This document shows, piece after piece, positions 67 through 47,770 of a stretch of DNA of 64,000 bases. The translations under genes and the position numbers were made by a program. Where the stretch lies: positions 3,038,001 to 3,102,000 of the forward strand of contig NZ_CP098455.1 of the NCBI RefSeq assembly GCF_023702635.1. Reading direction: 5' to 3'. The notes under the pieces were generated by a model. It was not told where the DNA came from and did not search any database. It worked only from the letters and a program-made list of their open reading frames with translations. Position 1 is the stretch's first letter, and the number at the start of each line of letters is the position of its first letter. This DNA comes from Spongiibacter taiwanensis. GTDB taxonomy: Bacteria; Pseudomonadota; Gammaproteobacteria; Pseudomonadales; Spongiibacteraceae.

Positions 67-82
67 TCGTCGTATGCGACAT
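67..82. promoter_or_regulatory. Operator-like palindrome, copy A
   Basis: The sequence is TCGTCGTATGCGACAT, matching the TCGTCG-N4-CGACGA family with one changed base in the outer right arm. It lies 109 nt upstream of the GTG at 192 chosen as start of the first regulator gene. This is the least perfect copy together with copy E. Confidence 0.6.
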
Positions 83-191
83 TTTGGATTGTCCCTCCTT
101 GCTCAAACCGGGCGGGCCCTTGCAAAGCTTTCCTCTTTGTCATGATAATTCGAGCCAAATAATAATCAGCGTCGGGGAGAGGGGAGAGTAC

Positions 192-2846
192 GTGGCAGCA
201 GAAAAAAGAAGCCGGGGCTATATCACGCGCAGTAAGGTATCGCCTCCAGAACTCCCGTCCTTTTTTGTGTCCCGAGCCCGAATCGTCGCCCGTTTCCAGT
301 CGCCCCGACGGGGGCGGCTGGTCAAGCTCAGTGCCCCCGCGGGTTTTGGTAAAACCCTGGCTATGGCCCAGCTTGCCCAGTGCTGTCGGGATGAGGGATT
401 GGCGGTACTCTGGTTAAGCCTGGATAGCGCTGACAACGACATCTCCCGTTTTTTGCAGACCTTTCTTGCCGCCATCAGGGAGCTGCCCGGCGACGGCGGA
501 CCCGTGATAGAGCACGATAGTAATGCGTCCATTGCCGACGGCATTATGGCGTTTTTCGATGCCCTGACCCGTCCTATTGCCGTATTTATGGACGGGTTTG
601 ACAGTCTGGAAAACAACACCGTACGGGATCTGGTTGTGCGGGGTATTGAATCGGTGCCCAAAGGATCTGTAGTGGTGATAGGGACCAGGGTCGAACCTGA
701 GTGGGGGATGTCAGGATTTCGGGCCAATGCCCAGCTCACCGAGATTGGCGTTAACGCGCTGCGCTTTTCCCGGGAAGAAGTATCCCAGCTTCTCCACGAC
801 AAGCTTGGTACCCAGTGGGGCACGGAGCACCTCGATGCCCTCCATCTGCAGACGGAAGGGTGGCCCACTGCACTGTGGTTTGCTTGGCTGGCCATTAGCG
901 ATGGCCGCGACGTGAACGAAGTGCTGAAGGATATTTCTGGGGGCGGCCCCACCCTGGAACGTTTTATCGCCGATGAGGTGCTGGCGATGGCCAGTGCAGA
1001 GGTGCGGACCTTTCTTCTCCAGACCAGCCCCGTGGATGATATTGACCGGGATATTGCTCGGGAGCTGAGCCCCGGCGCTGATGTAACCTCCTGTCTGGCC
1101 GAGAGTGAGCGACTTAATCTGATGTTGCGTTACTACGATGGCGGTGAGCAGGTATTCCGGCTCAACTCCCTGCTACGGGATTCGCTGTATACCCGTTTCA
1201 GGCAGACGGCGTCGGCTGAGGTGGTGGCGGAGGCTCATTCCCGGGCCTGCGACTATTTTATCCGCAGAGGCCGCTATGCGCCGGCAATTCGCCAGGCAAT
1301 TAGCGCGGGGCGTTACGATACCGCCACCGTATTGCTGAGGGAACAGCTTTACCCCCTGCTGGCCAGGGGGCGGATGCGTTTTTTGGCGGAGGTATTCGAA
1401 CAGCTGGCGGCGGCGGGAGAGTTGAACGATTCACTGCATGTGGTGCTCCACGCGTGGTGCGTGAATTTTACTCAGGGGCCTAGTGTCGCCTATGACATGA
1501 TTTCGTCGCTGGACGATCGGGGCATGGGGGAAGAGGCCCGGGATTCTCTCTTGGCACTGCGCCCCATGATTCTGGCTATGCAGGACCAGGTCGCGGAGGC
1601 GGAGGCTGCTTCCAGGGCCGCATTGGACCAAATAACCGGGCGCTACCCCTATGCCAGTGCCATGCTGTATCAAGTGAATTGCCAAACCAATATTATCCTG
1701 GGTCATCATGACGCGGCCCGGAAAGCTGTCAATTTGGCCCGTGATGCGGCGGTAAACGGCAGTGGCGCCTTCGGCATTGTGCTGGCAGAGTCAGCCGAGG
1801 TGATGCTGGACATGATGAGCGGTCGTCTGCTTCAAGCGGCCACTCGTGTTCAGATTGCCGAAGAAGGGTTTAGAAAGAGCCGTATGCATCCCGGCCACGG
1901 CATTGCCATTTCATCGGTCTTTCACGCCGAAGCGCTATACGAATCGGGGAAGCTTGCTGAGGCGCGGGCTCTGTTGGAGCGCAATATTTCCATGATGCGG
2001 GATATTGGCCCGCCGGATGCCCTAATAACCGCCCACACACTGATGAGTCGCCTGGCTCACCGGGCGGGGGAGTTTGATACCGCGCTGGAAATTCTGACGC
2101 AACTGGAAGCCGACGGCTTTCGTTTAAAACTACCTCGGGTTATCGCCAGTGCCAAGCTGGAGCTAGCTAATCTGCGAATTCAGCTGGAGGATTACCCCGG
2201 TGCCGCCGCCAAGCTTGAGGAAGCGCAGCAGGTTTACGACTGGAGCGACAGCGAGCGTCAGTGGTGGGTGGCCAATGATACTTTGTACCCCGCACTGATT
2301 AATGCCCGCCTGTTATTACGACGGGGCCGGGCGGCGGTGGCCATTGCCGATCTGAAGGAGGAGTTGAAAGGGGCAGAGCGCTCGGGGCGGGAACGGCGGG
2401 TACTCAAATTGCGGATTCTCTTGGCCGAGGCTCAGTTTCTCACCGGCGAAAAGCGCGCTGCCCTGCGCACAATGTTGCGGGCGGTTCGCTTTGCCATACG
2501 GGAAGGGTTTATCAGCACCTTTCAAGAGGAGGGGGCGATTGCCAATTCGCTGTATAGCGAGGCTCAGAAAAGTCTGGAAGAGGAGCTTGGCAGCGTCGAA
2601 GTGGATGAGCTTCCGGCTGGTCCGGCTTCCCCCTATATCAACCACATGGGCGAAAAGTTTACGCCAAAGGAGCTGGCAGTGCTGCAACATTTGGCAAAGG
2701 GCTTGTCCAACGCCCAGATGGCCGCAGCCATGTTTGTGTCAGAATCAACAGTGCGCAGCCATTTGCGCAGCATTAACGTCAAGCTCAAAGCCAAAAACCG
2801 CACCCAGGCCCTGGTGATGGCGCGGGAATTGGGAATCGTCAGTTAG
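192..2846 (+). CDS. MalT/LuxR-type ATP-dependent transcriptional regulator
   Basis: A large signal-transduction ATPase of the MalT/LAL type, about 884 residues. A Walker A motif (APAGFGKT) sits near residue 48, a long helical TPR-like middle follows, and a C-terminal LuxR helix-turn-helix occupies roughly the last 65 residues (from FTPKELAVLQHLAKG to the end). Such proteins usually bind an inducer and ATP and then activate catabolic promoters. The frame is open back to a GTG at 42, but GTG 192 is preferred: it follows a strong GGGGAGAG ribosome site, homology to the second regulator (27408-30071) begins there, and operator copy A would otherwise lie inside the gene. A long hairpin and operator copy B follow the stop. 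The ligand is unknown. Confidence 0.9.
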   Translation: MAAEKRSRGYITRSKVSPPELPSFFVSRARIVARFQSPRRGRLVKLSAPAGFGKTLAMAQLAQCCRDEGLAVLWLSLDSADNDISRFLQTFLAAIRELPGDGGPVIEHDSNASIADGIMAFFDALTRPIAVFMDGFDSLENNTVRDLVVRGIESVPKGSVVVIGTRVEPEWGMSGFRANAQLTEIGVNALRFSREEVSQLLHDKLGTQWGTEHLDALHLQTEGWPTALWFAWLAISDGRDVNEVLKDISGGGPTLERFIADEVLAMASAEVRTFLLQTSPVDDIDRDIARELSPGADVTSCLAESERLNLMLRYYDGGEQVFRLNSLLRDSLYTRFRQTASAEVVAEAHSRACDYFIRRGRYAPAIRQAISAGRYDTATVLLREQLYPLLARGRMRFLAEVFEQLAAAGELNDSLHVVLHAWCVNFTQGPSVAYDMISSLDDRGMGEEARDSLLALRPMILAMQDQVAEAEAASRAALDQITGRYPYASAMLYQVNCQTNIILGHHDAARKAVNLARDAAVNGSGAFGIVLAESAEVMLDMMSGRLLQAATRVQIAEEGFRKSRMHPGHGIAISSVFHAEALYESGKLAEARALLERNISMMRDIGPPDALITAHTLMSRLAHRAGEFDTALEILTQLEADGFRLKLPRVIASAKLELANLRIQLEDYPGAAAKLEEAQQVYDWSDSERQWWVANDTLYPALINARLLLRRGRAAVAIADLKEELKGAERSGRERRVLKLRILLAEAQFLTGEKRAALRTMLRAVRFAIREGFISTFQEEGAIANSLYSEAQKSLEEELGSVEVDELPAGPASPYINHMGEKFTPKELAVLQHLAKGLSNAQMAAAMFVSESTVRSHLRSINVKLKAKNRTQALVMARELGIVS

Positions 2847-2902: not shown

Positions 2903-2962
2903 CAAGCTCTTCGATAAGCTCCCCCAAGTAATTGTCACTGACAAGGTGCTTTGGAGCTGTGC

Positions 2963-4123
2963 ATGTCTGTTTTTCTCGATCTTGACGATCTCTATTTGAG
3001 CGATGAGCTGAAGTCGATGCGGCGCCTGATCCGGCGTTTTGTCGAGGAGGAGATTGTTCCCAATGGCGAGGCCTGGGAAGAGTTGGGCACCATGCCCCGG
3101 GCCTATTGGCACAAAATGGGTGACCTAGGGCTACTGGGCATGTCCTATCCCGAGGCCTACGGCGGTACCAGCTTGGGGCCGCTCGCCTCCCTAGTGCTAG
3201 CCGAGGAACTGGGACGTTCTACCTTTGGCGGGGTGATGTCCGGCGTTGGCGTGCACACCGATATGTCTGGCTTGCACATCGCCCGGCATGGCAGTGACAC
3301 CCTCAAAGCTAAGTATTTGCCCGAGGTGGTAACCGGGCGCAAGATCTGCGCGGTGGCAGTGACCGAACCGGACGCGGGTTCCGATGTGGCAGGGATAAAA
3401 ACCACAGCCGTGCGAGAAGGCGATAGTTACCGGCTCAACGGCGCCAAAATGTTTATCACCAATGGCGTGCATGGCGACCTTTATATGCTGGCTGCCAGAA
3501 CCGATCCGGCGGCCAAGGGCAGCCGAGGTATCTCCCTGTTTGTAGTTGAAAAAGGCGCGGCTGGTTTCAGTGTCAGCAAACCCCTAAAAAAAACCGGCTG
3601 GTTGTCCTCAGACACTGCCCAGCTATTCCTCGATGATGTGGTTGTCCCCGCAGGAAACCTGATCGGAGAGGAAAACAAGGGCTTTTATTACATTATGGAA
3701 GGCTTTCAGCTAGAGCGGATTTGCATTGGCGGCCACTGCATTGGCCAGGCTGAAAAGGCCATCGAACTGACGCTGGAATGGCTAAAGGGACGCCGGGCCT
3801 TCGGTAGTACCCTCTGGGATATGCAGAATATCAAACTGGATATGGCAGCCCTGGTGGCAGAGGTGCAGGCGGCTAAGCAACTGGCCTACTACACCGCCCA
3901 CCTGGATGCCCAAGGATGTGACGCCAGTGCCGGGGCTTGTATGGTCAAGGCGCACTTTCCCGAACTCCTCAACAAGGTCATGTATCGCTGTGTGCAGTTT
4001 CACGGTGGCATGGGGTATATGCGGGAAACGCCGGTGGAGAGAATGTCCCGGGATGCCCGTATCCTCGCCATCGGTGGCGGGGCGACCGAGGTTATGTGCC
4101 TGGAACTGGCGAAAAAAATGTAA
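2963..4123 (+). CDS. Acyl-CoA dehydrogenase
   Basis: FAD-dependent acyl-CoA dehydrogenase that would introduce a 2,3-double bond into an acyl-CoA and pass electrons to ETF. It is about 386 residues, the usual family length, with all three domains. The FAD/substrate motif CAVAVTEPDAGSD is present. The catalytic Glu appears to be the isovaleryl-CoA/long-chain type in the LERICIGG segment, because the usual C-terminal YEG position reads IGGGATE. ATG 2963 is preferred over the upstream TTG at 2951 because GGAG lies 6 nt before it. It begins a five-gene plus-strand run ending at 6975. It is not a close copy of the two 383-residue dehydrogenases at 12246 and 24968. Substrate unknown. Confidence 0.92.
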   Translation: MSVFLDLDDLYLSDELKSMRRLIRRFVEEEIVPNGEAWEELGTMPRAYWHKMGDLGLLGMSYPEAYGGTSLGPLASLVLAEELGRSTFGGVMSGVGVHTDMSGLHIARHGSDTLKAKYLPEVVTGRKICAVAVTEPDAGSDVAGIKTTAVREGDSYRLNGAKMFITNGVHGDLYMLAARTDPAAKGSRGISLFVVEKGAAGFSVSKPLKKTGWLSSDTAQLFLDDVVVPAGNLIGEENKGFYYIMEGFQLERICIGGHCIGQAEKAIELTLEWLKGRRAFGSTLWDMQNIKLDMAALVAEVQAAKQLAYYTAHLDAQGCDASAGACMVKAHFPELLNKVMYRCVQFHGGMGYMRETPVERMSRDARILAIGGGATEVMCLELAKKM

Positions 4124-9498: not shown

Positions 9499-10092
9499 CT
9501 ACCTCAATACGTACAGCAGCGGAAAAATAAAGATCCACAACAGATCAACCATGTGCCAATACGTGGCGGCACTCTCCAGCCCGAATAGGCCTGAGCGGCC
9601 AGTGCGGATGCGGAAAAACAGGGTGCAGAGCACGATGATGCCAATGACCGTGTGGACAAAATGCAGGCCGGTCATCATGTAATAAAACATGAAGAAGTCA
9701 TTGGTCTTCATGGTGATGCCGACGCTGAGCTTATCGTGGTATTCGACCAGTTTGGCCGCCCCGAACAGGCAGCCGAGGGTGATGGTGGCTGCGAGAAAAA
9801 ACAGGGCGGTGGGGCGCTTTCCTCGGGCCAGGGCCTTGATGGACAGTACCACTAGCCAAGAACTGGTGAGCAGTATCAGGGTATTGGCGGTGCCCACCTC
9901 AAAGGACAGCAATGTCTGGGAGGCGTTGTATAGAGCCGGGTCTTTCAGGCGTTCAAACAGGTAGGAAACAAACAGCCAGAAGAACACCATGATGTCCACC
10001 AGCACAAAAATGAATACGCCTTGTTCGCCGGGGATGGTGGTCTTGTTGGAAATGGTGTGATTCATATTCAGGTGTCGCTTTAGCAGAGGCAT
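9499..10092 (-). CDS. Cytochrome c oxidase subunit III-like protein (NorE-like)
   Basis: A roughly 197-residue, five-span member of the haem-copper oxidase subunit III family. Signature segments are PGEQGVFIFVLVDI, NTLILLTSSW, FYYMMTGLHFVHTVIG and YWHMVDLLWIFIFPLLY. Short five-helix forms include NorE and CyoC types. Start is uncertain between ATG 10092 and ATG 10065, neither with a good ribosome site. It is coupled to the CoxIV-like gene and flanked by a CrtC/AttH-like gene and a desaturase-like flavoprotein, not by oxidase genes. It might assist a terminal oxidase encoded elsewhere or serve a membrane flavoprotein chain. Confidence 0.86.
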   Translation of the reverse strand: MPLLKRHLNMNHTISNKTTIPGEQGVFIFVLVDIMVFFWLFVSYLFERLKDPALYNASQTLLSFEVGTANTLILLTSSWLVVLSIKALARGKRPTALFFLAATITLGCLFGAAKLVEYHDKLSVGITMKTNDFFMFYYMMTGLHFVHTVIGIIVLCTLFFRIRTGRSGLFGLESAATYWHMVDLLWIFIFPLLYVLR

Positions 10093-12245: not shown

Positions 12246-13397
12246 TTATAGATTGCGGCCGATCATGTCCTTCAGGGCCTCATTGGCACCGGCGTAAATA
12301 GGTTCGATGCGGGCATCGGCGTACATGCGGGCGATGGGGTATTCCATGATGTAGCCGTGGCCACCGAACAATTGCAGGCAGCGACTGACGATTTCGCACT
12401 GGCGGTCGCTGTTCCACCACTTGTTCATGGAGGCGAGATCGGAATCTAGGGTGCCATCAATTCTGCGAGAGACCACATAGTCCGAGAACACCCGGCCGAT
12501 GGTGGCAATGGTTTTGATTTCGGCCAGTTCCATGCGGGTGCTTTGCAGGTCGATCAGTTTTTTGCCGAAGATATCCCGGTCCTTGGTGTAGTCCACGGTG
12601 ACCCGGTAGGCGTGCTCCATCACCGCTGCGCAGTTCACGCCGCCCAGGGCGCGTTCGTAGGTGAGGTCTTGCATCATCTGGTAAAAGCCCCGGCCCTCCA
12701 CTCCGCCGAGTAGGGCATCGGCGGGCACGCGGCAATCTCCGAAGAACAATTCGCAGGTATCGGAGCCGTGCAGGCCGATTTTTTTCAGGCGTTTGCTTAC
12801 TTCGAAGCCCGGTGTGTTGGTCTCAAAAATGAAGAGCGATACGCCCTTGGCCCGCTGACTGGGATCAGTCTTGGTGACCAGGACGATGATGTCAGCAATG
12901 GAGCCATTGGTGATGAAGGTTTTGGCGCCGTTGATGACGTACTCATCGCCATCGCGAATGGCTTTGGTGCGGGTGTTTTGCAGGTCGGTACCACCATTGG
13001 GTTCGCTCATGCCCATGGCGGCAATAATTTCACCACTGCACATGCCGGGCAGGTACTTCTGCTTTTGTGCTTCTGTGCCGTAGTTGGCGATGTAGTGGGC
13101 GGCGACAACGTGAATCTGCTTGCCGGCGCGCCAACTGGTATCGCCGGCCAGGCACAGCTCCTGGGCAACGATCGCCTCGTAGGCAAAAGTGCCGCCGGAA
13201 CCGCCGTATTCTGCCGCAATGTCGGGGCACAAAATGCCCAGCTCGCCAGCCTTGCGCCACACCTCACGATCCGTTGCGCCGGCCTCCCACCACTGTTCCT
13301 GTTTTGGGCTTACTTCTTCCTCCACAAAGCGCCGCACCATGCGTTGCAGTTCGGCCAGTTCATCGGTCATCCAAGAGGGGGTGTAGTTGTCAATCAT
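12246..13397 (-). CDS. Acyl-CoA dehydrogenase (383-residue type)
   Basis: First gene of the seven-gene minus-strand operon. 383 residues, normal length, with IIAAMGMSEPNGGTD at the FAD site. The catalytic Glu is probably in LTYERALGG, since the alternative C-terminal position reads IYAGANE. It is a close paralogue of 24968-26119: both begin MIDNY.P.WM.DEL and end GANE.LKD.IGRN. Operator copy C lies 61 nt upstream in the divergent promoter region shared with the enoyl-CoA hydratase gene. Confidence 0.93.
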   Translation of the reverse strand: MIDNYTPSWMTDELAELQRMVRRFVEEEVSPKQEQWWEAGATDREVWRKAGELGILCPDIAAEYGGSGGTFAYEAIVAQELCLAGDTSWRAGKQIHVVAAHYIANYGTEAQKQKYLPGMCSGEIIAAMGMSEPNGGTDLQNTRTKAIRDGDEYVINGAKTFITNGSIADIIVLVTKTDPSQRAKGVSLFIFETNTPGFEVSKRLKKIGLHGSDTCELFFGDCRVPADALLGGVEGRGFYQMMQDLTYERALGGVNCAAVMEHAYRVTVDYTKDRDIFGKKLIDLQSTRMELAEIKTIATIGRVFSDYVVSRRIDGTLDSDLASMNKWWNSDRQCEIVSRCLQLFGGHGYIMEYPIARMYADARIEPIYAGANEALKDMIGRNL

Positions 13398-13458
13398 GAT
13401 TTGTTCCGGTGCTAGGGTTTACGCCTCGAATGGTAATGAGGCCGTTGGTGCAGGGGTT

Positions 13459-13474
13459 TCGTCCTTAGCGACGA
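13459..13474. promoter_or_regulatory. Operator-like palindrome, copy C
   Basis: TCGTCCTTAGCGACGA, in the region between the divergent acyl-CoA dehydrogenase (start 13397) and enoyl-CoA hydratase (start 13597). Its reverse complement, TCGTCGCTAAGGACGA, closely matches copy B. It could control both directions. Confidence 0.68.
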
Positions 13475-13596: not shown

Positions 13597-14376
13597 ATGA
13601 GTGGGGCGGCAAACGTCGATTGGAAAGACGAGGGTGTTAGTTACCGGGTCGAGTCGGGGCTGGCCCTGGTGCGTCTTGCCCGGCCGGAACGGGGTAATGC
13701 ATTGAGCTACCGGCTGCGGGCTGCCTTGATGAGGGCGGCGAGCCGGGCTATTGCCGACCCCCAGGTAAAAGTGATCTGTCTCGGTGCCGACGGCAGCCAT
13801 TTTGGCGTCGGCGCGGATTTGGCCGAAATGGCCCGGATCAAGGAAGACGTGCGGGAGGCGGTGGAGCTGGAAATACGCCCCTTTGTTGCCAGATTGCGGG
13901 GCTGCGGTAAGCCGGTATTGTGCGCCATTAATGGTGTTTGTGCAGGGATGAGTATCGGCGTTGCCCTGGCCGCAGACCTAGTGGTAATGGCCGCGGATGC
14001 TCGGTTGGTGTTGCCCTTTGCCCAGATCGGCCTAGTGCCTGACAGCGGGGTTTCCTGGCATTTGCTCCATGGTTTGGGTTACCGCCAGGCTTGCGCCCTG
14101 GCCTTTGAGGGCGGGGAGCTTTCAGCGCAACGCTGTTTAGAGCTGGGGTTAGTCAATCAGGTGGTGCCACCGGAGGCGCTGTGGTCGGCGTTGACCGACT
14201 GGGCCGCGCGCTTGGTCGCGCAGCCGGAGGTCTTCTTGGCCAGTGCCAAGCAGCTGATGGTGCGTACATTAGAGGCATCGCTGGAGCAGGCCATCGGTAT
14301 AGAAGGGGAGTTCCAGGCTCGCTGCATTGCCAGCCCGGACTTTGATGCGGCGGTGGCCCGGCGTCTTGCTCGCTGA
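13597..14376 (+). CDS. Enoyl-CoA hydratase/isomerase family protein
   Basis: A 259-residue crotonase-fold protein. The oxyanion-hole segments are HFGVGADLAEM and INGVCAGMSIGVALAADLVV, and the LPFAQIGLVPDSG region follows. The second oxyanion segment has CAGMS where many hydratases have CLGGG. In the acid/base region, A-Q-I replaces the usual P-E-(V/I/T), so the first catalytic Glu of true hydratases is missing and it may be an isomerase or other crotonase activity. The frame opens at 13387, but ATG 13597 gives the normal family length; the upstream extension includes operator copy C. It is followed by a thioesterase and P450. Confidence 0.88.
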   Translation: MSGAANVDWKDEGVSYRVESGLALVRLARPERGNALSYRLRAALMRAASRAIADPQVKVICLGADGSHFGVGADLAEMARIKEDVREAVELEIRPFVARLRGCGKPVLCAINGVCAGMSIGVALAADLVVMAADARLVLPFAQIGLVPDSGVSWHLLHGLGYRQACALAFEGGELSAQRCLELGLVNQVVPPEALWSALTDWAARLVAQPEVFLASAKQLMVRTLEASLEQAIGIEGEFQARCIASPDFDAAVARRLAR

Positions 14377-14556: not shown

Positions 14557-15414
14557 ATGTCGCAATGGGACCCTGCAACACTCAGTACCCTGTCGCCGTA
14601 TTCCCGTACCCTCAACCTCCGCTACCGGCCAGTGGTCGGCTCCAAGGGGTGTGTGCAGTTGGTGCCCTCAGCCTCAAACCGCGGGGCGGGCAGTGGCGAG
14701 CTGGATAGGCGCTGCATCGTGGGGCTGATAGACCATGCCATGGGGTATACGCTTCAGGCCTCTGGTGCCGGGCTAATGCCCGGTGCAACCCTGAATTTGC
14801 GAGTGGATTTTGAATCATTTGAGTCCATCGAGGGTGGGCTGGAAGCCGTTTGCCGGGTTCGCCAGCGTCATTCAGGGGGCGCCCTGCTGGTGGCGGAGGT
14901 CTCCACCGGGGCTGGGTTGCCGGTGGCCCTGGGCACGTCCTTTTTTACCCAGCGGACCTTTCCCGGTAAGGTGGGGCTGGAAGAGGCCCGCCTGAGCGAT
15001 TATCAGCCGGGGCCGGAAATTCACTGTTATGCCCAGGGTATTGGTCTGAGCGCACTGAATGGATGCTGGCAGTTGGCTGGTGGTCATCTGGGGGCGGTGG
15101 GTTGGGAGCCCGGCAATACTTTCCACGGAGGCGCGGTGGGCAGTTTGTTGGTGGCCAGCGCGGAAGCTGTGCTGGCTGCCGACATGCGCATCGTGTCCCT
15201 GTCGATTTCCTATCTGCGACCCAGTCGCGCTGATCTGCCATTGCAGGCTCAGTGTCGGCCGGTGCGCCTGGGGGGGAGCGCGAGTTTCTATACCGTCCAA
15301 TGTTATCAGCAAGATCAGAGAAAACCGGTAGCCGTGGCGGAGGTCTGCTGCGTCCGGGAGGCCTTGAACGATTCTGCCAGTGGGGCAGGAACAATAATAA
15401 GGAGGAGCACATGA
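14557..15414 (+). CDS. Tandem-hotdog acyl-CoA thioesterase-like protein
   Basis: A 285-residue protein with two PaaI/4HBT-like hotdog halves. The first is around residues 25-130 (DRRCIVGLIDHAMGYTL) and the second around 150-270 (NTFHGGAVGSLLVASAE, then SLSISYLRPSRADLPL). Such proteins hydrolyse acyl-CoAs. GGGAGA precedes the ATG. The stop overlaps the P450 start in ATGA, which implies translational coupling. The 180 nt upstream contain two short inverted repeats weakly resembling the operator motif. Substrate unknown; hydroxylated or ring-containing acyl-CoAs would suit the context. Confidence 0.8.
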   Translation: MSQWDPATLSTLSPYSRTLNLRYRPVVGSKGCVQLVPSASNRGAGSGELDRRCIVGLIDHAMGYTLQASGAGLMPGATLNLRVDFESFESIEGGLEAVCRVRQRHSGGALLVAEVSTGAGLPVALGTSFFTQRTFPGKVGLEEARLSDYQPGPEIHCYAQGIGLSALNGCWQLAGGHLGAVGWEPGNTFHGGAVGSLLVASAEAVLAADMRIVSLSISYLRPSRADLPLQAQCRPVRLGGSASFYTVQCYQQDQRKPVAVAEVCCVREALNDSASGAGTIIRRST

Positions 15415-16712
15415 GCAGCGTTAGCAAGCGGGACGTGGGAGAATTTGCACTGGCGACGGATGATGCCGCGATATTGGTGGATCCGACGGCCTATGCCGAT
15501 GGCCGGGTCCTGCGTTTGTATCGTCGTCTGCAGCAGGACAATCCTGTGGCCTGGGCGGCACCGCCGGGCTACTCCCCCTTTTGGGTGTTGACCCGGTTTG
15601 AGGATATTGAACGGGTCAGCATGGATCACCTGCGTTTCCCCTATGGTGACCGGCCCTCGGTGCTGTTTGATGCGGCTTCTGAGGCGTTGATGCGGGCCAC
15701 CACCGGCAAGCCCTATGCGGTGCGCACTTTGGTGACGGTAGACGAACCGGATCACTGCCTACTGAGGCAGATTACCCAGTCCTGGTTTATGCCCAGAAAC
15801 CTGCAGGCACTAGGGCCAAGGATTCAGGCTATTGCCGATGAAGCCTTGGCCGCCATGATGACCAAGGGGCCCGTCATCGATTTTGTCGAGGAGGTGGCCC
15901 TGCACTACCCACTGCGCATCATCATGGAAATTCTCGGTGTCCCAGAGGCGGATTATCCGTTGATGCTCAAGCTTACCCAGGAAATTTTTGCGCCCGCTGA
16001 TCCCGACAGCGTCCCCGAAGGTGTGGACTGTAACGACCCCGCCTTTTTTGCTGCGGCGCTGCAGTCCTCCGCTGAAAAAATCAGCCGTTATTTTCGGACC
16101 TTGGTGGAGGCGCGGCGCCGGCACCCGCAGGACGATATTGCCACTCTGTTGGCCACGGCCAGTATTGAGGGACGGCCGTTAAGCGACGAGGAGCTGGCGG
16201 GCTACTTCATCATTATTGCCACTGCGGGGCACGATACCACCTCGTCAACCACAGCTGCGGTAATGTACGCCCTGGCTACCCAGCCGGGCCTGCTGGCCCG
16301 GGTCCAGGGCGATATGTCCCTAGTGCCCGCCTTGATAGAGGAGGCCATACGCTGGGGCTCACCGGTAAAGACTTTTATGCGTTCGGTTAGCGAAGACATG
16401 GTGTTTGGTGGTCGGCAGTTTCGCACCGGGGACTGGCTCATGCTGTGCTATGCCGCTGCCAACCGTGACCCGGCTATTTATGAAGAGGGCGAACGCTTTG
16501 ATTTGGCCCGGGGCAATGCCCGCCATCTGGCCTTTGGCAAGGGCATTCACATGTGTTTGGGGCAGCACCTGGCGAGACTGGAGATCAAGGCGTTGTTCGA
16601 TCGCCTGATTCCCCGGCTCGCCTCGGTGGCGCTTTGTGGCGAGGTGACCATGAGCAACTCCTACTTCGTCAATGGCTTTAAGCACTTGCCTGTCCGCATT
16701 CGCTATCTCTAG
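15411..16712 (+). CDS. Cytochrome P450 monooxygenase
   Basis: A 433-residue soluble bacterial P450. The I-helix oxygen-activation motif AGHDT (residues 272-276), the ExxR pair E311/R314 and the haem loop FGKGIHMCLG (Cys382) are all intact. The C-terminal NGFKHLPVR resembles P450s acting on steroid side chains and long-chain terpenoids (CYP124/125/142-like), but this is only a resemblance. A consensus AAGGAGGAG lies just before ATG 15411, which overlaps the thioesterase stop. No ferredoxin gene is adjacent; the nearest is at 61575. Confidence 0.93.
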   Translation: MSSVSKRDVGEFALATDDAAILVDPTAYADGRVLRLYRRLQQDNPVAWAAPPGYSPFWVLTRFEDIERVSMDHLRFPYGDRPSVLFDAASEALMRATTGKPYAVRTLVTVDEPDHCLLRQITQSWFMPRNLQALGPRIQAIADEALAAMMTKGPVIDFVEEVALHYPLRIIMEILGVPEADYPLMLKLTQEIFAPADPDSVPEGVDCNDPAFFAAALQSSAEKISRYFRTLVEARRRHPQDDIATLLATASIEGRPLSDEELAGYFIIIATAGHDTTSSTTAAVMYALATQPGLLARVQGDMSLVPALIEEAIRWGSPVKTFMRSVSEDMVFGGRQFRTGDWLMLCYAAANRDPAIYEEGERFDLARGNARHLAFGKGIHMCLGQHLARLEIKALFDRLIPRLASVALCGEVTMSNSYFVNGFKHLPVRIRYL

Positions 16713-16780: not shown

Positions 16781-16796
16781 TCGTCGCAACAGACGA
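16781..16796. promoter_or_regulatory. Operator-like palindrome, copy D
   Basis: TCGTCGCAACAGACGA, 96 nt upstream of the thiolase GTG. One base differs from copy B. It sits in a 180-nt gap between the P450 and thiolase genes, so the thiolase block probably has its own promoter. Confidence 0.68.
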
Positions 16797-16892
16797 GGGG
16801 GGCATTTGCAGCCAGTGCTAAGGTTCAGTTCTGAATAATTTGCCGGGCCGCTAGGCCGTGAGCTTTTTTGCAATAAACATGGTGACCTCACT

Positions 16893-30900: not shown

Positions 30901-30916
30901 TCGTCCTTTGCGACGA
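30901..30916. promoter_or_regulatory. Operator-like palindrome, copy G, in the TetR-WS/DGAT intergenic region
   Basis: TCGTCCTTTGCGACGA, 93 nt upstream of the TetR start and 79 nt upstream of the WS/DGAT start. Its reverse complement TCGTCGCAAAGGACGA resembles copies B and D. A site here would allow autoregulation by the TetR protein. Confidence 0.72.
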
Positions 30917-34550: not shown

Positions 34551-34835
34551 TCAAGTTGCAAAGTAGCCGCTGCCTGAAACGATAATTATGGCGCAGCTGC
34601 CCAACACCCAGCATTCACAGGACAGTCGCAGGGTGGTTGGCGCACCTGCCACTTCCATAAAGTGGATAATCACCAGGCGTGCTTTGTAAAAGGCCAGCAG
34701 CATAATGGTGCTCATTTCAAAAAAGGCACTGTCGGCCACCAGCCCGTGGTGGGTACCCAGTACCCAGGAAGCCAGTGTGATCAGCATCAACGCCAGCCAC
34801 ACCACGGACTCTTTGCAGAAAATAAGTTCGCGCAT
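34551..34835 (-). CDS. Cytochrome c oxidase subunit IV-like small membrane protein (second copy)
   Basis: 94 residues, three hydrophobic segments, and the KARLVIIHFMEVAG motif matching KVRLVIYEFMHVR of the copy at 9214-9495. Six nt separate it from the CoxIII-like gene ahead. No catalytic oxidase subunit is nearby. Confidence 0.78.
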   Translation of the reverse strand: MRELIFCKESVVWLALMLITLASWVLGTHHGLVADSAFFEMSTIMLLAFYKARLVIIHFMEVAGAPTTLRLSCECWVLGSCAIIIVSGSGYFAT

Positions 34836-34841
34836 GGTTCC

Positions 34842-35465
34842 TCAGGGCAATAGGTAGATGAGGGGAAAGATTACCAGCCACAGCAGGTCGACCATATGCC
34901 AGTAAATGCCGCCGCACTCGAGATTGCTGATGTCCTGCTCGTTCAGCTTTTTGGCCCGGCGCAGGCTGAAAAAAAAGTACAACAACAGCGGCACACCGAG
35001 CAGCACATGGAAGTAGTGCATGCCGGTGACCAGATAATAGAAAATCCAGAAATCGTTGGTCAGGAAGGTAATGCCGAGCTCGGTTTTGTCGACGTATTCC
35101 ATTCCCTTCAGCCACAGAAAGCCGCTGCCAAGGAGGGTGGCCAGCAGCATCAGCCAGGAGCCCTGACGGAGCAGACCGCGCTTGGCGGCGCGCAGGGCCA
35201 GTGCCACCATCCACGAGCTGCACAACAGCAGGATGGTATTGGCGGTGCCTGCCTGCACATCCAGCAATGCCTGGGCTTGCTGAAATACCGCGGCATCATT
35301 CACTCGGTAGTAGGCAAAGAAGCCGAAGAACAGCGAGAAGCAGCACATGTCACCGAGGATAAACATCCACACCAGTTCATCGCCGGGAAGATGGCGTGTT
35401 TTCTTGGTAACGGGTTCTAATGGAATTTCGTTGGCGCTGTTCATATCTGACGCTTGTGTGATCAC
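34842..35465 (-). CDS. Cytochrome c oxidase subunit III-like protein (second copy)
   Basis: A 207-residue five-span subunit III relative. It shows PGDELVWMFILGDM, NTILLLCSSWM, FYYLVTGMHYFHVLLG and YWHMVDLLWLVIFPLIY. The frame begins at GTG 35465 with GAAGG upstream; an internal ATG at 35444 is possible. It is paralogous to 9499-10092, and both pairs are beside a CrtI-like flavoprotein and polytopic proteins. A bidirectional hairpin separates it from the membrane-protein gene upstream. Confidence 0.88.
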   Translation of the reverse strand: MITQASDMNSANEIPLEPVTKKTRHLPGDELVWMFILGDMCCFSLFFGFFAYYRVNDAAVFQQAQALLDVQAGTANTILLLCSSWMVALALRAAKRGLLRQGSWLMLLATLLGSGFLWLKGMEYVDKTELGITFLTNDFWIFYYLVTGMHYFHVLLGVPLLLYFFFSLRRAKKLNEQDISNLECGGIYWHMVDLLWLVIFPLIYLLP

Positions 35466-36446: not shown

Positions 36447-38060
36447 TTATCGGAAATTTTTAACTGCTGTGAGTGCGGCGTTACGTCCCGGCATACCGCA
36501 GATCCCGGCGCTGGGGTGGGTGCCCGAGCCGCTCAGGAAGAGCCCCTTCACAGGGGTCTTGTAGCCGCCCAGTCCATAGGCCGGACGGCCGGGACCAAAA
36601 CGGGTGACATAGGGGTCAACGTGGTAGACGCTGCCATCAATAGCGTGGAAGCGCTTTTCAATATCCGGCGGCGCCAGCGGGCGACGGGCGATCTCCAGCT
36701 CTTCAATACCCTCGTAATACTTGTTGGAATCGGCCACTACCATATTGGTGATCTGCTCCCGGGCCTTTTCCCAGCCGATGCGGGGGTTGAAGGGCACCAG
36801 GCCGGACCAGAACCAGTAGGTGTCGTGACCCTCGGGGGCCATCTTGGGATCAAAGGCGGTGGTGACCTGGCCGAGACCGGCGATGATTTCCGGAATTTCG
36901 CCGCGCACACAGTCCTGATAGGCCTGAATACCCTGCTTGTAGGTGGCCCACTGCAGGGTCGGCAGGCGCAGGTCGGCATCCCAGCCCCGCTTTTTGCGCC
37001 ACTCGGAGTGACGGCGCGGCTCGATGCGGCCCTTCAGGGCGATGTTCAATTTGTAGTCGGCAATACCCCGATTGCTGGTGGGGATGTGCTTGGCTTTGTT
37101 GGCCATCGGCGCGTCCAGCGTGCCTTCGGGTAGCAGATGGTTGAGCACCATTTTCGGGCTGAAGCCGGTGACCACGCCGTGCTTGGCGAAAATTTCCTCA
37201 CCACCGATCAGACGCACTCCGGCGGCGCGGCCGTCCTTAACGATAATCTGCTCAACTTTGGCGCTGGTGCGCACGCTGCCGCCGGCATCTTCCAGGCAGC
37301 GGATCAAGGCCTTGGGAAAGGCGCCGGTGCCACCCTCAAACATGGTGATGCCGGTGCTCTGCAGGGCCGACAGATAAATCATGCAGAACGCGCTCAGGTC
37401 TGAGCGAAACTCCATGAACGGCAGCCCGGTAAGCAGGCAGGCCCGGACAATGTCGGACTCAAACATCTCTTCCAGCACTTCCGCGTGACCCTTGGTCATC
37501 AGGCGAACGATGGCGGGAATATGCCGGGCGTGGCGGATGGCGCCGCCCATGGTGCGCAGCACCGCCGAGGGAGCCGGGCGGTAGCAGTTGGTGTTCATCA
37601 GCGGCAAGCCAATGCGCATGGCCCGGTCGATGGTGTTGGACAGGTCCAGCCAGGCCTGGGCGTCTTTCTTGGAGAAGTATTTAATCTCTTCTGCGGTTTG
37701 CAGAGGGTTGTTCCACATGCCGATGGACTCGTCACCCTCGGAATTGAGCTGGACGTGGCAGGGGTCGATGCGGCGCTGGCGCAGCCCGTATTTGGTCTCC
37801 AGCTCCAGCTCCTTGGCAATCGGTGACAGACGGAACAGAGAGGCGTGGATGGAGGCTTCATTGATCATATGGTCCGGGGCTTCCGGCGCCATAGGATTGG
37901 TGGCGGTCATGCCGCCGGCGGTTTCGTGGGCCTCAACCACCAGGGTTTTCAGGCCCGCCCGGGCCAGGTAGCAGGCGGCTACCAGGCCGTTGTGGCCGGC
38001 GCCAGCGACAATCACATCAATATCTTTCATCGCCGGAGAGGCTGTTTGATCGGCTTGCAT
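36447..38060 (-). CDS. Phytoene desaturase-like FAD oxidoreductase
   Basis: A 537-residue flavoprotein resembling CrtI/retinol saturase/PYROXD2 proteins. VIVAGAGHNGLVAACYLARAG is at about residues 17-37, followed by VVEAHETAGGMTAT. The C-terminal FAD signature is GLFLSGSGTHPSAGICGMPG. It is longer than the other two flavoproteins, close to the CrtI norm. GAGG precedes ATG 38060. A promoter region with direct GTTATAG repeats and operator copy H lies upstream, shared with the first TonB receptor gene. Confidence 0.88.
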   Translation of the reverse strand: MQADQTASPAMKDIDVIVAGAGHNGLVAACYLARAGLKTLVVEAHETAGGMTATNPMAPEAPDHMINEASIHASLFRLSPIAKELELETKYGLRQRRIDPCHVQLNSEGDESIGMWNNPLQTAEEIKYFSKKDAQAWLDLSNTIDRAMRIGLPLMNTNCYRPAPSAVLRTMGGAIRHARHIPAIVRLMTKGHAEVLEEMFESDIVRACLLTGLPFMEFRSDLSAFCMIYLSALQSTGITMFEGGTGAFPKALIRCLEDAGGSVRTSAKVEQIIVKDGRAAGVRLIGGEEIFAKHGVVTGFSPKMVLNHLLPEGTLDAPMANKAKHIPTSNRGIADYKLNIALKGRIEPRRHSEWRKKRGWDADLRLPTLQWATYKQGIQAYQDCVRGEIPEIIAGLGQVTTAFDPKMAPEGHDTYWFWSGLVPFNPRIGWEKAREQITNMVVADSNKYYEGIEELEIARRPLAPPDIEKRFHAIDGSVYHVDPYVTRFGPGRPAYGLGGYKTPVKGLFLSGSGTHPSAGICGMPGRNAALTAVKNFR

Positions 38061-38264: not shown

Positions 38265-38280
38265 TCGTCGGAACCGACGA
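38265..38280. promoter_or_regulatory. Operator-like palindrome, copy H
   Basis: TCGTCGGAACCGACGA, perfect with seven-base arms around AA. It lies in the 355-nt divergent gap, 135 nt upstream of the TonB receptor ATG at 38416 and 204 nt upstream of the flavoprotein start at 38060. The rest of the gap holds the two elements above and no gene. Confidence 0.72.
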
Positions 38281-38415: not shown

Positions 38416-40734
38416 ATGCCCAATCTCAACAAAATCTACCTCTGCCTAGTTGTTAGCAGTGTGCCAATGGCCGGTGTTGCCCAGCAACCGGATGAGGGTG
38501 AGCGCCGGGCCAACCGGATGCTTGAAGAGGTGGTGGTGACGGCCCAGAAACGGGAGGAAAAGGCCCAAGAAGTGCCCATCGCGATTCAGGCCTTCAGTGC
38601 TGAAAAGCTGGATGCGGTGGGCATTGAAAGCGCTCAGCAGCTGGAAAAGATCACGCCGGGACTGACTATTACGAATGCTGCCGGCTTCAATATCGCTTAC
38701 TTGCGCGGTGTGGGTACCGATGCCTTCCTGCCCGGTGCTGACCCCAGTGTTCCGTTTTATCTGGATGGTGTTGCCATGCTGGCGGCCCAGGGGACGACAG
38801 ATACCCTGGGTCGAGTAGAGCGGGTGGAGGTGCTGAAGGGACCCCAAGGTACTCTGTTTGGCCGCAACGCTACCGGCGGCGCCATTAATATCGTCACCCC
38901 TGAGCCCAATCAGGAATTCTTGGTCGATGTGAAGCTGGAGAAAGCGGATTACGGCGAGAAGAACGCCCAAGTCTATTTTAACGTTCCGCTGGGCGAGACC
39001 TTTGCGGCCACCCTGAGCTACTTTGATACCCGCCGCGACAACTACTACAGCAATGACGCCGGCCCGGTGATTGATGTGTATTCCAGGGGCGGACGGGCCA
39101 AGCTGCGCTGGGACATCAGCGATACCCTGACGCTGACCCTGGCGGGCTCGAAACAGGAGGGCGCCAACAACGGCGGCCTGTCCTTTGAAAATACCCGGGT
39201 GTCGCCGGCCTTTTCGGCGGTGTTGCCCCAGGACCCCAAGGCAGACCGCAAGGTGAGCCTGGACTCCATGGCAGGTTCCGAGTTTGAAAGCGAACTTTAC
39301 TCGGCTACTCTGAATTGGGTCACCGGTCTGGCCGACTTGAAACTGATTCTGTCCGACCAGACGGTGGCAGCACCCTTTGTGCGTGCCGACTTTGATAAGA
39401 GCGCCCTTCCCATCGTCAATATTGAGTCGATTGTGCAAGAGTCCCTGCAGGAAACCGCCGAGCTGCAAATCTTATCCAACGCCGAGTCCCCTTTTGCCGA
39501 GCACATGGAGTGGGTTGCCGGGCTTTACTACATTGAATCCTCGGGTGGTTTTGATCCCATTGCCTTCGACGTCTTGCCGGGTGCCTTCACGACCCTGCCG
39601 ATTCCGCTGGGTGCCGAACTCGGCGGCCTGCTCGATACGATCACTAACCTGGTGGGTGTTCAGGACCTGTCAGACGGTGCCCGGGTATTGGCTTACGGCG
39701 TGCTGGCCAGCGAGGCCTATTCGGCCTACGCCCAGGCGACCTATTTCGTCTCGCCGGAAGTTGATCTGACCGTCGGGCTGCGCTATCAGGAAGAGACCCG
39801 TAATCTGGAAAATGCCAAGGCAGAAGTACAGGGCGAGAATGGCAATAATATCCTCATCCGAGAGGACAATCCGCCAGAGCTTGAAGCCGAACAGTTATCG
39901 CCGAAAGTTGCTTTGCAATGGCGCCCCGGAGGTGGTGACAACCAGATTTACGCGTCCTGGGCCCGAGCCTTTAAAAGTCCGACATACAACACGGTTAATC
40001 TGTTAGATGCGCCGGAAAAGGTCGACGAGGAGCAAGTGGATTCCTACGAGCTGGGCTTTAAAAGTCAGTGGTTTAACGGCGGGCTTACTCTCAACGGTGC
40101 CATCTTTCTGATTGAGCAGGAAAATTTGCTAACCGGCTTTGTGGCACTGGCCTCCGGTGGCGTGGTGAACTACGACAACGCCGGCAACTCGGAAATTCGC
40201 GGGGCTGAATTCGATTTTACCTGGGCACCGATGCCGGATTGGAACCCAGGGCTGGTGTTATTTGGTGGTGCTACCTATCTCGATTCCGAGTACACCGAAT
40301 ACAAAGAGGGTCGTGGCTATGATGAGGATACCGGCCTGGCCTTTGGTAACGGGGGTACCTTCCCACTGCCGGCACGGGACTTCAGCGGCAACAAGATTGT
40401 TCGCACGCCAGATCTCACCTATACCTTTGGCTTTAACCAGAACATTTACATTGGCGGCGGCTCCGCAATCGAAGTGGGCGCCGACATTTATTACAACGAC
40501 GGCTTTTTCTTTCTGCCGCAGAATTCGGATCTTTACGCACGTGAGTCCTACAGCTTGGTCAATGCTCGGGTGAGCTACTTCTATGAGCCATGGCGGCTGC
40601 AGTTGACCTTGTTTGGCGAGAACGTGGCGGATGAAACTTACAATGAGGTGGTGTTTGTTGACGACTTTGGTCGTAACCAGGTACTCAACTCGCCGGCGAT
40701 TTATGGTGCTCGGGTTAAGTGGAGCTTTGAGTAA
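38416..40734 (+). CDS. TonB-dependent outer-membrane receptor
   Basis: A 772-residue receptor for energy-dependent uptake. The signal peptide probably ends at AGVA (residue 22), followed by a TonB-box-like EEVVVTAQKREE. The plug domain includes LKGPQGTLFGRNATGGAINI, and the barrel ends in VKWSFE, near the usual terminal aromatic. Members of this type carry siderophores, vitamins or, in degraders, hydrophobic compounds. It is highly similar to the partial receptor at 61950 in the N-terminal region. A second receptor and an AveC-like gene follow. Confidence 0.93.
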   Translation: MPNLNKIYLCLVVSSVPMAGVAQQPDEGERRANRMLEEVVVTAQKREEKAQEVPIAIQAFSAEKLDAVGIESAQQLEKITPGLTITNAAGFNIAYLRGVGTDAFLPGADPSVPFYLDGVAMLAAQGTTDTLGRVERVEVLKGPQGTLFGRNATGGAINIVTPEPNQEFLVDVKLEKADYGEKNAQVYFNVPLGETFAATLSYFDTRRDNYYSNDAGPVIDVYSRGGRAKLRWDISDTLTLTLAGSKQEGANNGGLSFENTRVSPAFSAVLPQDPKADRKVSLDSMAGSEFESELYSATLNWVTGLADLKLILSDQTVAAPFVRADFDKSALPIVNIESIVQESLQETAELQILSNAESPFAEHMEWVAGLYYIESSGGFDPIAFDVLPGAFTTLPIPLGAELGGLLDTITNLVGVQDLSDGARVLAYGVLASEAYSAYAQATYFVSPEVDLTVGLRYQEETRNLENAKAEVQGENGNNILIREDNPPELEAEQLSPKVALQWRPGGGDNQIYASWARAFKSPTYNTVNLLDAPEKVDEEQVDSYELGFKSQWFNGGLTLNGAIFLIEQENLLTGFVALASGGVVNYDNAGNSEIRGAEFDFTWAPMPDWNPGLVLFGGATYLDSEYTEYKEGRGYDEDTGLAFGNGGTFPLPARDFSGNKIVRTPDLTYTFGFNQNIYIGGGSAIEVGADIYYNDGFFFLPQNSDLYARESYSLVNARVSYFYEPWRLQLTLFGENVADETYNEVVFVDDFGRNQVLNSPAIYGARVKWSFE

Positions 40735-43321: not shown

Positions 43322-44287
43322 GTGAAGACTTCCACACCTCACTACAGCGCGCCGGTCGCGGCGTCTTCCCAGGCCGGCGTGGCGCCCATTGTTTGGTGGG
43401 CCGCTGCGGGCGCGATTTGCTTCGCGTTTTCTGCCTATGTATTCGGGCAATGGTTTCTTTCCGACACCGCCTTTGCTGCGGTGCCAATTGGCCCGGAGGA
43501 CGCGATTTCTGATGCCGCTCTTTTGAAAATTCGCGCGGTGGAAGTCGTCAGCACCCTGGTCGCGCTGGCGGCGCTTTACTGGTACTGCCTGCGCCCGGTG
43601 TTGGGCGGTCAGAAGATGACCATGGAGGGCCTGTTATTGTTGGGCGCCCTAGTTAGCTATGTGCTCGATACTAGCATTAACTATTTTGGCTACTACATGG
43701 CTTGGAATAAACACGCGATTAATTTCGGTACCTGGGGCGGTTTCTTTCCCGGACACGTGGGTCCAACAAACTATGCCGAGGCCTGGTTCTGGGGGCCGCC
43801 GATGTATATCTACTTTGGGGTGGCGCTGGCCAGTATTCAGTTGGCGGCAATGGGGGCGATTCGACGCCTGTCGAACTGTGGTTTTCTGATTGCGATGCTG
43901 CTGTCCTTTCCCATCGTATTCTTGTTTGACCTGATTGCCGAATCCATCATCATTCGCCTGGGGGCATACGCCTGGCCAGAGACTGTGGGCGCGTTAACCC
44001 TTTGGAAGGGGGAGATCTATCAGTTTCCCCTCTATGAGTCGTTTCTTGTTGGGGTGTATGCCTGTATGTACAGCGCCCTGATGCACTACCGGGACGCACA
44101 GGGCCTGACCTGGATCGAGCGAGGAGTGGATCGCTTTGCGGGCGGTCTGCAGCTGCCGCTGCGCTTTTTTGCCGCCTGTGGCTTCGCCTTCTTGTGCACG
44201 TTTATCTACTTTTTTGGCTTCAACCTGTTTTCAGCTTTCGCCGATAACACGGTGACAATGCCCTCTTACCTGATGTATGCCGACTAA
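43322..44287 (+). CDS. AveC-like (spirocyclase-family) membrane protein
   Basis: A 321-residue protein with about seven membrane spans after a 25-residue soluble N-terminus. Segments such as NFGTWGGFFPGH and the IAESIIIRLGAYAWPET run resemble the spirocyclase AveC family, whose best-known member acts in avermectin spiroketal formation. GAGGAGAG precedes GTG 43322. It is downstream of two receptor genes and followed by a strong terminator. Two shorter, more distant relatives are at 32423 and 35573. Homologues outside antibiotic clusters are uncharacterised, so the reaction is not claimed. Confidence 0.65.
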   Translation: MKTSTPHYSAPVAASSQAGVAPIVWWAAAGAICFAFSAYVFGQWFLSDTAFAAVPIGPEDAISDAALLKIRAVEVVSTLVALAALYWYCLRPVLGGQKMTMEGLLLLGALVSYVLDTSINYFGYYMAWNKHAINFGTWGGFFPGHVGPTNYAEAWFWGPPMYIYFGVALASIQLAAMGAIRRLSNCGFLIAMLLSFPIVFLFDLIAESIIIRLGAYAWPETVGALTLWKGEIYQFPLYESFLVGVYACMYSALMHYRDAQGLTWIERGVDRFAGGLQLPLRFFAACGFAFLCTFIYFFGFNLFSAFADNTVTMPSYLMYAD

Positions 44288-44367: not shown

Positions 44368-45051
44368 TTATAAGCCGAGGATTTGCCCCACTTGCGCGTC
44401 AAACAGCAAGGCACCACCGAGTAAACCATCGATCAGCGGGCGGCCGGCATCGCCGAGCGCCAACAGGTCGCCGACCGGAATGGCGTCAACCCCCAGCCCG
44501 AGGATAGGCCCGACCGGCGCTAACAGAATCTCAGTGGGGTTAACGTCACCACCGGAAAAACCGCCGTCAGAAAAGCTCGAAGCAAAGCCACCCGCTGACA
44601 GGTCGGGGAGATCAAACTGCACAAAGGATACTGCCAAATTTGGCACAATGGACACGACGGGATTCAATGCTGCCAGTCCATCTCCCGCGGGTAGCGTGCC
44701 CAACAAAATTTCAATGAAAGGGCCACCCAGGGCGACCAGATCACTGACGGGCAGTGCGTCCAGGCCGGGAATGCCGCTCTCCAGACCGGGGATGCTGCCG
44801 GTAAGGTTGGGTAAGCTGCCGAAGCTGGTGAGCCCTAAACCACCCAGGTCGAGGGCATCCAAGGCCAGTCCATCCAGGGCAAGTGTATCGAGGGGCAGTG
44901 CGCCGAGACTCAGTGCATCAAGGCCAAGAGAAAGCCCGCCAGAGGCGCCGAGCAAGCCATCGAGGCCCGGAATTTGTGCCTCGCTCATTGGGGTGGCGGC
45001 CACGCCAAGCCCGAATGCCAAGGCCATACTACATTTTTTCATTGAGATCAT
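44368..45051 (-). CDS. Secreted Leu/Gly/Asp-rich repeat protein of unknown function
   Basis: A 227-residue protein with an N-terminal signal peptide, probably cleaved after SEA (about residue 25). Residues about 43-72 form tandem pentapeptides of the pattern [DG]-x-L-x-L, for example DALSL, GALPL, DTLAL, DGLAL, DALDL, GGLGL. A longer imperfect repeat follows (LPVSDLVALGG and IPVGDLLALGD). It has a single Cys, in the signal peptide, almost no Lys or Arg after the signal, and is strongly acidic. GGAG lies 6 nt before ATG 45051. Operator copy I is upstream. I recognise no family; a periplasmic or cell-surface lipophilic binder is only a guess. Confidence 0.75.
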   Translation of the reverse strand: MISMKKCSMALAFGLGVAATPMSEAQIPGLDGLLGASGGLSLGLDALSLGALPLDTLALDGLALDALDLGGLGLTSFGSLPNLTGSIPGLESGIPGLDALPVSDLVALGGPFIEILLGTLPAGDGLAALNPVVSIVPNLAVSFVQFDLPDLSAGGFASSFSDGGFSGGDVNPTEILLAPVGPILGLGVDAIPVGDLLALGDAGRPLIDGLLGGALLFDAQVGQILGL

Positions 45052-45160: not shown

Positions 45161-45192
45161 CCCCCTCATCGTCGGATTCGACGATGAGGGGG
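45161..45192 (+). terminator. Perfect 14-bp-arm hairpin with T-run, containing operator copy I
   Basis: CCCCCTCATCGTCG (45161-45174) pairs perfectly with CGACGATGAGGGGG (45179-45192) around GATT, and a T6 run begins 3 nt later on the plus strand. Flanking genes are both on the minus strand, so a plus-strand terminator would have no obvious gene. It may be mainly an operator. Confidence 0.5.
45169..45184. promoter_or_regulatory. Operator-like palindrome, copy I
   Basis: TCGTCGGATTCGACGA with perfect arms, 117 nt upstream of the secreted repeat protein start and inside the larger hairpin. Confidence 0.7.
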
Positions 45193-47673: not shown

Positions 47674-47754
47674 GGTGCCTTCCCTAGCTTGTTCTTATAG
47701 AGGGTAGCCAGATTATGGTGATTGGCATCTTCTCTCTGGGCCGCAGAAGATACC

Positions 47755-47770
47755 TCGTCGAATGCGACGA
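47755..47770. promoter_or_regulatory. Operator-like palindrome, copy J
   Basis: TCGTCGAATGCGACGA with seven-base perfect arms when the flanking C and G are included. It is 81 nt upstream of the TonB receptor start and the last copy seen in the window. Confidence 0.72.

Follow-up and report, generated by a model that had tools for sequence, protein, structure and literature searches.

Spongiibacter taiwanensis carries a large cluster of acyl-CoA and oxygenase genes within the 64,000-nucleotide stretch analysed here (contig NZ_CP098455.1, positions 3,038,001–3,102,000; hereafter the window, to which coordinates refer unless they are marked as genome positions). Ten copies of a 16-bp palindrome, TCGTC(G)-N-WW-N-(C)GACGA, are spread between its genes. 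The cluster also encodes two paralogous MalT-type LuxR regulators, LAL1 and LAL2, and a TetR-type protein, TetR-1; a second TetR-type protein, TetR-2, lies among further copies elsewhere in the genome. From sequence comparison, it is highly likely that the palindrome is the operator of LAL2, which would be an AlkS-like activator of the LAL (large ATP-binding LuxR, MalT-type) family and would turn on catabolic genes over roughly 100 kb in this marine bacterium. The regulators and sites are as follows.

67–82: first copy of the palindrome (TCGTCGTATGCGACAT), marginal; it separates LAL1 from a gene on the minus strand whose start is at 7
192–2846, plus strand: LAL1, paralogous MalT-type regulator; recognition helix nearly the same as that of LAL2
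2876–2891: predicted operator; before acyl-CoA dehydrogenase 2963–4123
13459–13474: predicted operator; between divergent acyl-CoA dehydrogenase (12246–13397, minus strand) and crotonase (13597–14376, plus strand)
16781–16796: predicted operator; before thiolase 16893–18095
24832–24847: predicted operator; before SDR 24000–24743 (minus strand), whose orthologues are also preceded by sites
26180–26195: predicted operator; between divergent acyl-CoA dehydrogenase (24968–26119, minus strand) and acyl-CoA ligase (26356–27351, plus strand)
27408–30071, minus strand: LAL2, MalT-type LuxR regulator (TPR_MalT, GerE helix-turn-helix, P-loop-like motif); proposed binder and activator
30202–30807, minus strand: TetR-1, cluster member, not a likely binder
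30901–30916: predicted operator; between the TetR–LAL2 pair and WS/DGAT 31020–32417
38265–38280: predicted operator; between FAD oxidoreductase (36447–38060, minus strand) and TonB receptor (38416–40734, plus strand)
45169–45184: predicted operator; before secreted repeat protein 44368–45042 (minus strand)
47755–47770: predicted operator; before TonB receptor 45313–47514/47673 (minus strand)
Genome 3010550–3011155: TetR-2, flanked by sites and part of the regulon

Distribution of the palindrome

All ten copies were described in an earlier note on this DNA (the original prediction), and re-reading the window confirmed their coordinates and sequences, including the slips in copies 67 and 24832. 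The pattern TCGTCS-N4-VGACGA matches exactly at eight places in the window (15 strand matches), while 100 dinucleotide shuffles of the window gave a mean of 0.04 strand matches and at most 2. A matrix built from the ten window sites was run over 164 kb of genome around the window. It returned 15 sites scoring at least 16, spanning about 100 kb and including all ten window copies, copy 67 among them. On leave-one-out scoring nine of the ten copies rank within the top 14 of the 164 kb. The exception is copy 67, which reaches no more than 13.1 at rank 17 and is therefore regarded as marginal.

The copies had been described as wholly intergenic, and this holds for all 15 sites scoring at least 16, in a region of which 12.7% is intergenic by a home-made gene caller. 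The matrix thus does not match coding sequence as often as promoters in these 164 kb. Called starts lie 67–248 nt from the site centres, close to the 60–205 nt originally given. That no copy follows 48 kb is correct inside the window, but the regulon goes on outside it, with four sites 25.7–29 kb before its left edge and one 7.5 kb beyond its right edge (matrix score at least 16). A distal site at genome position 272289 precedes a cytochrome-oxidase-IV-like gene. With the stricter pattern TCGTCS-N4-SGACGA the genome holds 15 exact matches. Two of these look like chance, since the one at 515203 has a matrix score under 13 and the one at 1676384 lies inside a called coding frame. A one-mismatch scan of the same genome showed no enrichment (77 places versus 183 for the reversed control).

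Conservation of the sites

Three congeners carry the palindrome in comparable numbers: whole-genome counts of exact sites are 15 in Spongiibacter thalassae KMU-166, 15 in Zhongshania marina ZX-21 and 12 in Z. aliphaticivorans BC9_2A, of which 10, 7 and 8, respectively, lie within the cluster stretch that was fetched. In these genomes the sites stand before the same orthologues, namely the thiolase, the desaturase-family hydroxylase, the Rieske oxygenase, acyl-CoA dehydrogenase/ligase, SDR, TetR/WS-DGAT and FAD oxidoreductase/TonB receptor. The TonB receptor at 45313–47514/47673 has an orthologue on another Z. marina contig which is also preceded by a site. The remaining 14 genomes of the genus have 0–4 exact sites. 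Much of the gene set, with sites before its operons, recurs in Pseudomonas migulae NBRC 103157, where 8 of 17 exact sites lie within about 50 kb, and in Pseudomaricurvus alcaniphilus, where 5 of 7 lie within about 21 kb. The retention of sites before orthologues in these five species strongly supports the locus-wide regulon that had been proposed.

Linkage to LAL genes

Inside the genus three regulators co-occur with the sites: TetR-1, TetR-2 and LAL2. Orthologues of LAL2 (60–63% identity) are present in 4 of 18 genus genomes, including that of S. taiwanensis, and these are the same four that have 12–15 exact sites; the chance of such a match is 1 in 3060 if kinship is ignored. An alternative reading assigns the sites to an unlinked global regulator, of which the LAL gene is a mere target. 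A few regulon sites are indeed distant from the cluster (genome 272289 and other Z. marina contigs), but congeners lacking LAL2 have the 0–4 sites noted above, and in unrelated lineages, whose cargo differs, it is at the LAL loci that the sites gather, making this explanation very improbable.

Across the order, LAL2 homologues at E<=1e-120 occur in 14 of 390 genomes, ten of them outside the genus. Seven of these ten (G101, G199, G345, G377, G264, G383 and G030) have exact sites near the LAL gene, either adjacent or within about 6 kb. Plasmids were covered through seven records with a LAL match spanning 80% of the query, of which four were examined for a LAL gene together with sites. Cupriavidus metallidurans CH34 and the Paracoccaceae plasmid pLA6_001 each have three perfect sites within 15 kb of the LAL gene; those of pLA6_001 lie between annotated genes, and one CH34 site (L315 13597) falls inside an open reading frame of the home-made caller. 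Near the LAL genes of C. necator N-1 and Cupriavidus sp. EM10 there are no sites. Pairs of LAL gene and site are found next to different catabolic genes in three proteobacterial classes.

The cargo at such loci varies. In G264 and G383 it includes an AMP-ligase, with a TRAP-type receptor beside it (tested in G264), and in pLA6_001 it is a TRAP/beta-oxidation cluster, which differs from the large acyl-CoA/oxygenase cluster of the window.

TetR proteins as candidate binders

TetR-1 was the binder suggested in the original prediction, and as a repressor of the cluster it has some points in its favour. Its orthologues among the genus genomes are found in exactly the four with many sites, the palindrome stands before its gene in all four (17.6 bits in two), and a 16-bp palindrome suits a TetR dimer. 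Outside the genus the association does not hold generally. In none of the ten genomes with LAL2 homologues does TetR-1 have a full-length match at E<=1e-12, so seven of them have sites beside the LAL gene without one; three of the ten lack even a partial match, and the partial matches of the others cover 58–94 residues with E-values of 2.5e-14 at best. Conversely, a TetR-1 homologue occurs in a Robiginitomaculum metagenome-assembled genome in which LAL2 (at E<=1e-30) and exact sites are both missing, although the locus there has 42% GC and the assembly may be incomplete. The 20 kb around a second TetR-1 homologue of P. alcaniphilus (locus L146) are free of sites, and the palindrome in the promoter of this homologue is another one, ATAACGTACGTTAT. 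The constant distance from palindrome to -10 hexamer described below is, moreover, an activator's arrangement. Repression by TetR-1 through the palindrome is accordingly highly improbable. Genome contigs were scanned for TetR-1 relatives with two peptide patterns, which took in 80 of 446 relatives, so more may exist; on plasmids, identity to TetR-1 was below 30% in every one of the 20 records listed out of 304.

The ATAACGTACGTTAT palindrome lies at L146 9752–9765, upstream of the TetR-1 homologue, and a looser look-alike can be seen by eye before the TetR copy of locus L145. It is possible that palindromes of this type are the operator of the TetR protein itself.

TetR-2 is flanked by sites and has orthologues (72–76% identity) in the same four genus genomes. 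P. alcaniphilus, however, possesses LAL2, TetR-1 and five clustered exact sites and has no TetR-2 match at E<=1e-10, which largely refutes TetR-2 as the binder; we regard it as extremely improbable.

LAL2 and its recognition helix

The LuxR-type gene of the cluster had been named in the original prediction only as a target, whereas the comparisons above point to the LuxR-type protein LAL2 as the likely binder. LAL2 is 887 amino acids long. Its C-terminus matches the LuxR/GerE helix-turn-helix (PF00196, E=3.4e-18, residues 824–880), and it has a MalT-like TPR sensor region (PF17874, E=6.9e-20). At the N-terminus a Walker-A-like motif, APAGFGKTT, is invariant in four orthologues, and nSTAND/AAA matches are below family cut-offs. 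Against the MalT model LAL2 scores 321 bits, below the 537-bit equivalog cut-off, and is therefore not filed as MalT itself. LAL2 is best explained as a member of the LAL regulators, and probably as a new activator with its own operator.

LAL1 has close relatives, among the 18 genus genomes, only in S. taiwanensis itself (G000) and Z. aliphaticivorans (G017). It is not required as a binder, because G001 and G016 lack a close relative and yet have 15 exact sites each. LAL1 might nevertheless share operators with LAL2.

Wherever a LAL protein was read from a site-bearing genome (G377 left out), its recognition helix fits S-[DE]-S-T-[VIA]-R-[TS]-H-L-R-[NS]-I-N. Relatives with lysine in place of the first arginine lack nearby sites; these have VKTHLR in C. 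necator N-1 and VKSHLR in EM10 and G142. Among the more distant LAL proteins of the genus, 18 of 18 readable ones carry lysine and are without a site in the roughly 1.4 kb of flank covered, and six unreadable ones have none either. As read from these helices, the arginine/lysine rule is a correlation within related proteins.

Promoter geometry

Sites were oriented on their downstream genes and the positions of -10-like hexamers were then tallied. Three of 77 sites, lying in coding frames, and loci L002, L003, L146 and L147 were left out of the geometry sets, and G142 was left out of the similarity-filtered and -35 analyses. In six species, a TAnnnT hexamer lies 29–31 nt past the centre of the palindrome in 42 of 103 oriented promoters, compared with a mean of 3.3 and a maximum of 9 at 159 other offsets. 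A validation set of independent LAL loci (G199, G101, G264, G383 and G030) gives 13 of 51 (other offsets: mean 1.2, maximum 6). Removal of similar promoters leaves 39 of 96 and 11 of 36, respectively, and 2 of 6 perfect sites in plasmid records have TAnnnT at +30. Between +5 and +15 the six-species set shows no excess of -35-like hexamers (at most 4 of 103, against a background maximum of 4).

Within the window the better promoters are those at 2876, 13459, 16781, 24832 and 26180 (both directions), two of which have weak hexamers (3.6 and 3.2 bits). Their -10-like hexamers are:

2915–2920, plus strand: TAAGCT, 3.6 bits, offset +31
13430–13435, minus strand: TACCAT, 4.6 bits, offset +31, towards the acyl-CoA dehydrogenase
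16819–16824, plus strand: TAAGGT, 3.2 bits, offset +30
24804–24809, minus strand: TAGCAT, 4.6 bits, offset +30
26152–26157, minus strand: TAGACT, 5.3 bits, offset +30
26218–26223, plus strand: AATAAT, 5.1 bits, offset +30, not of TAnnnT form

Copy 67 has no -10 hexamer at +30 in either direction.

Taking the hexamer as -12 to -7 places the palindrome at -50 to -35, with its centre at -42.5. Judged by sequence alone, these promoters resemble class II (LuxR-like) promoters in having a centre near -42, fixed -10 spacing and a poor -35. Such a geometry would suit an activator better than a simple repressor.

Proposed mechanism

The pathway substrate or its CoA ester would be sensed by the ATPase/TPR part of LAL2, which would then multimerise, allowing two C-terminal LuxR/GerE domains to take the two arms of the palindrome. 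Bound at -50 to -35 and centred at -42.5, LAL2 would reach the -35 position, which usually lacks a consensus hexamer, and would recruit RNA polymerase to a -10 box lying some 30 bp past that centre. Many of the 24 site–gene pairs of the S. taiwanensis genome would thereby be turned on, including acyl-CoA dehydrogenases, ligases, thiolases, the Rieske oxygenase, TonB receptors and a desaturase-family (perhaps AlkB-like) hydroxylase with rubredoxin. LAL2 may also act on its own gene through the site at 30901, before the TetR–LAL2 pair. Sites stand before LAL genes in G057, G264 and G383 as well; the window site 30901 is without a good -10 at +30, and P. alcaniphilus has no site before its TetR–LAL pair.

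Several observations weigh against LAL2 as the common activator or temper the evidence for it. Inside the genus, LAL2 and TetR-1 both co-occur perfectly with the sites. The seven site-bearing genomes outside it are not all independent, because G101, G199, G345 and G377 belong to one genus and G264 and G383 to another. G333 and G153 have only near-matches close to the LAL gene (15.0 and 15.2) and yet have an arginine helix (VRTHLR preceded by Q-N, and VRAHLR, respectively), and G142 has no site near its LAL gene. No site was found in the flank of LAL1 in Z. aliphaticivorans. The whole genomes of P. alcaniphilus (7 versus 19), G383 (2 versus 3) and G142 (1 versus 3) hold no more sites than the reversed control gives, and those of P. 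migulae (17 versus 13) and G264 (2 versus 1) hold barely more. There the case rests on clustering at the LAL locus.

The promoter evidence is likewise uneven. A -10 signal in at least one direction is present at 41 of 70 sites in the six-species set, compared with just 12 of 37 for the validation loci, and the S. taiwanensis genome alone has it in 7 of 24 oriented site–gene pairs. Window sites 30901, 38265, 45169 and 47755 have a weak -10 or none at +30; poor -10 geometry is seen at the promoters of the TonB receptors, the secreted protein, TetR and WS/DGAT. In the validation set a -35-like hexamer directly follows the palindrome (+8) in 6 of 51 promoters, equal to the background maximum; a -35 is thus not absent everywhere. 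The -10 hexamers were scored with E. coli frequencies, and the gene starts come from the home-made caller, which misplaced one gene in locus L318.

Comparison with known regulators

The nearest described behaviour to that proposed for LAL2 is that of AlkS, the comparison being one of described behaviour. In Pseudomonas putida GPo1 and Alcanivorax, AlkS belongs to the LuxR/MalT type, activates alkane genes through an inverted-repeat operator and is subject to positive feedback (PMC8784404, PMC3664771). Likenesses lie in the catabolism of hydrophobic compounds, in an inverted-repeat operator lying upstream of the promoter and, in GPo1, in an operator also before one of the regulator's own promoters (PMC8784404, PMC3664771). 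The AlkS operator is given as a 20-bp inverted repeat before PalkB and PalkS2 (PMC8784404, PMC3664771), compared with a 16-bp palindrome in 15 copies over 100 kb here. An inverted-repeat operator upstream of target promoters, as in AlkS-like LAL activators, is matched in this case by position and distribution only.

MalT of Escherichia coli and TpdR of Rhodococcus jostii TMP1 are also large proteins; they have an N-terminal ATP-binding region and a C-terminal LuxR helix-turn-helix (PMC6099782). LAL2 agrees with the Pfam MalT model in its TPR part. MalT, and TpdR as its authors propose, use direct repeats (PMC6099782), in contrast to the strict palindrome found here. LuxR and the lux box offer a dyad-symmetric operator 42.5 nt upstream of the start site; the lux box is 20 nt long, however, and acyl-homoserine lactones are bound by LuxR through another N-terminal domain (PMC7585371).

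No published description of a regulon with this operator was found, in agreement with the original prediction, within a partial coverage of the literature in which a degenerate motif is not text-searchable. To our knowledge, few LAL proteins have a known operator.

Other genes of the cluster

The P450 at 15411–16712 is nearest, among solved P450s (PDB), to 3tkt (CYP108D1) and to P450terp, and the Rieske alpha subunit is nearest to various ring-hydroxylating dioxygenases. These relatives suggest a terpenoid or cyclic substrate for the window cluster. The desaturase-family protein has no solved relative at E<=0.001.

The FadD4-like acyl-CoA ligase at 26356–27351, by operator 26180, matches only profile positions 8–305 of 506 and is probably truncated. 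Beside the TonB receptors lies an AveC-like (spirocyclase family) protein at 43322–44287, whose P. migulae homologue is by a site. A cytochrome-oxidase III-like gene and its relatives occur in the cluster (9499–10092, 34551–34835 and 34842–35444), and the gene under the distal operator at genome 272289 is COX IV-like.

Significance

It is reasonably probable that LAL2 represents an undescribed subfamily of LAL activators across the Alpha-, Beta- and Gammaproteobacteria with one common operator, a ‘TCGTC box’ at -42.5, which would serve as a transferable plug-in switch for differing acyl-CoA catabolic islands and whose specificity the recognition-helix arginine (rather than lysine) would help to set. 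If so, the strict palindrome and the fixed promoter geometry would make the regulons of the subfamily predictable from sequence. The arginine or lysine of the recognition helix would offer a simple test of specificity, and the operator with its promoter would be ready for use in a biosensor. Palindrome and geometry together would also be an aid in tracing which substrates are used by uncharacterised catabolic clusters from sea and soil.

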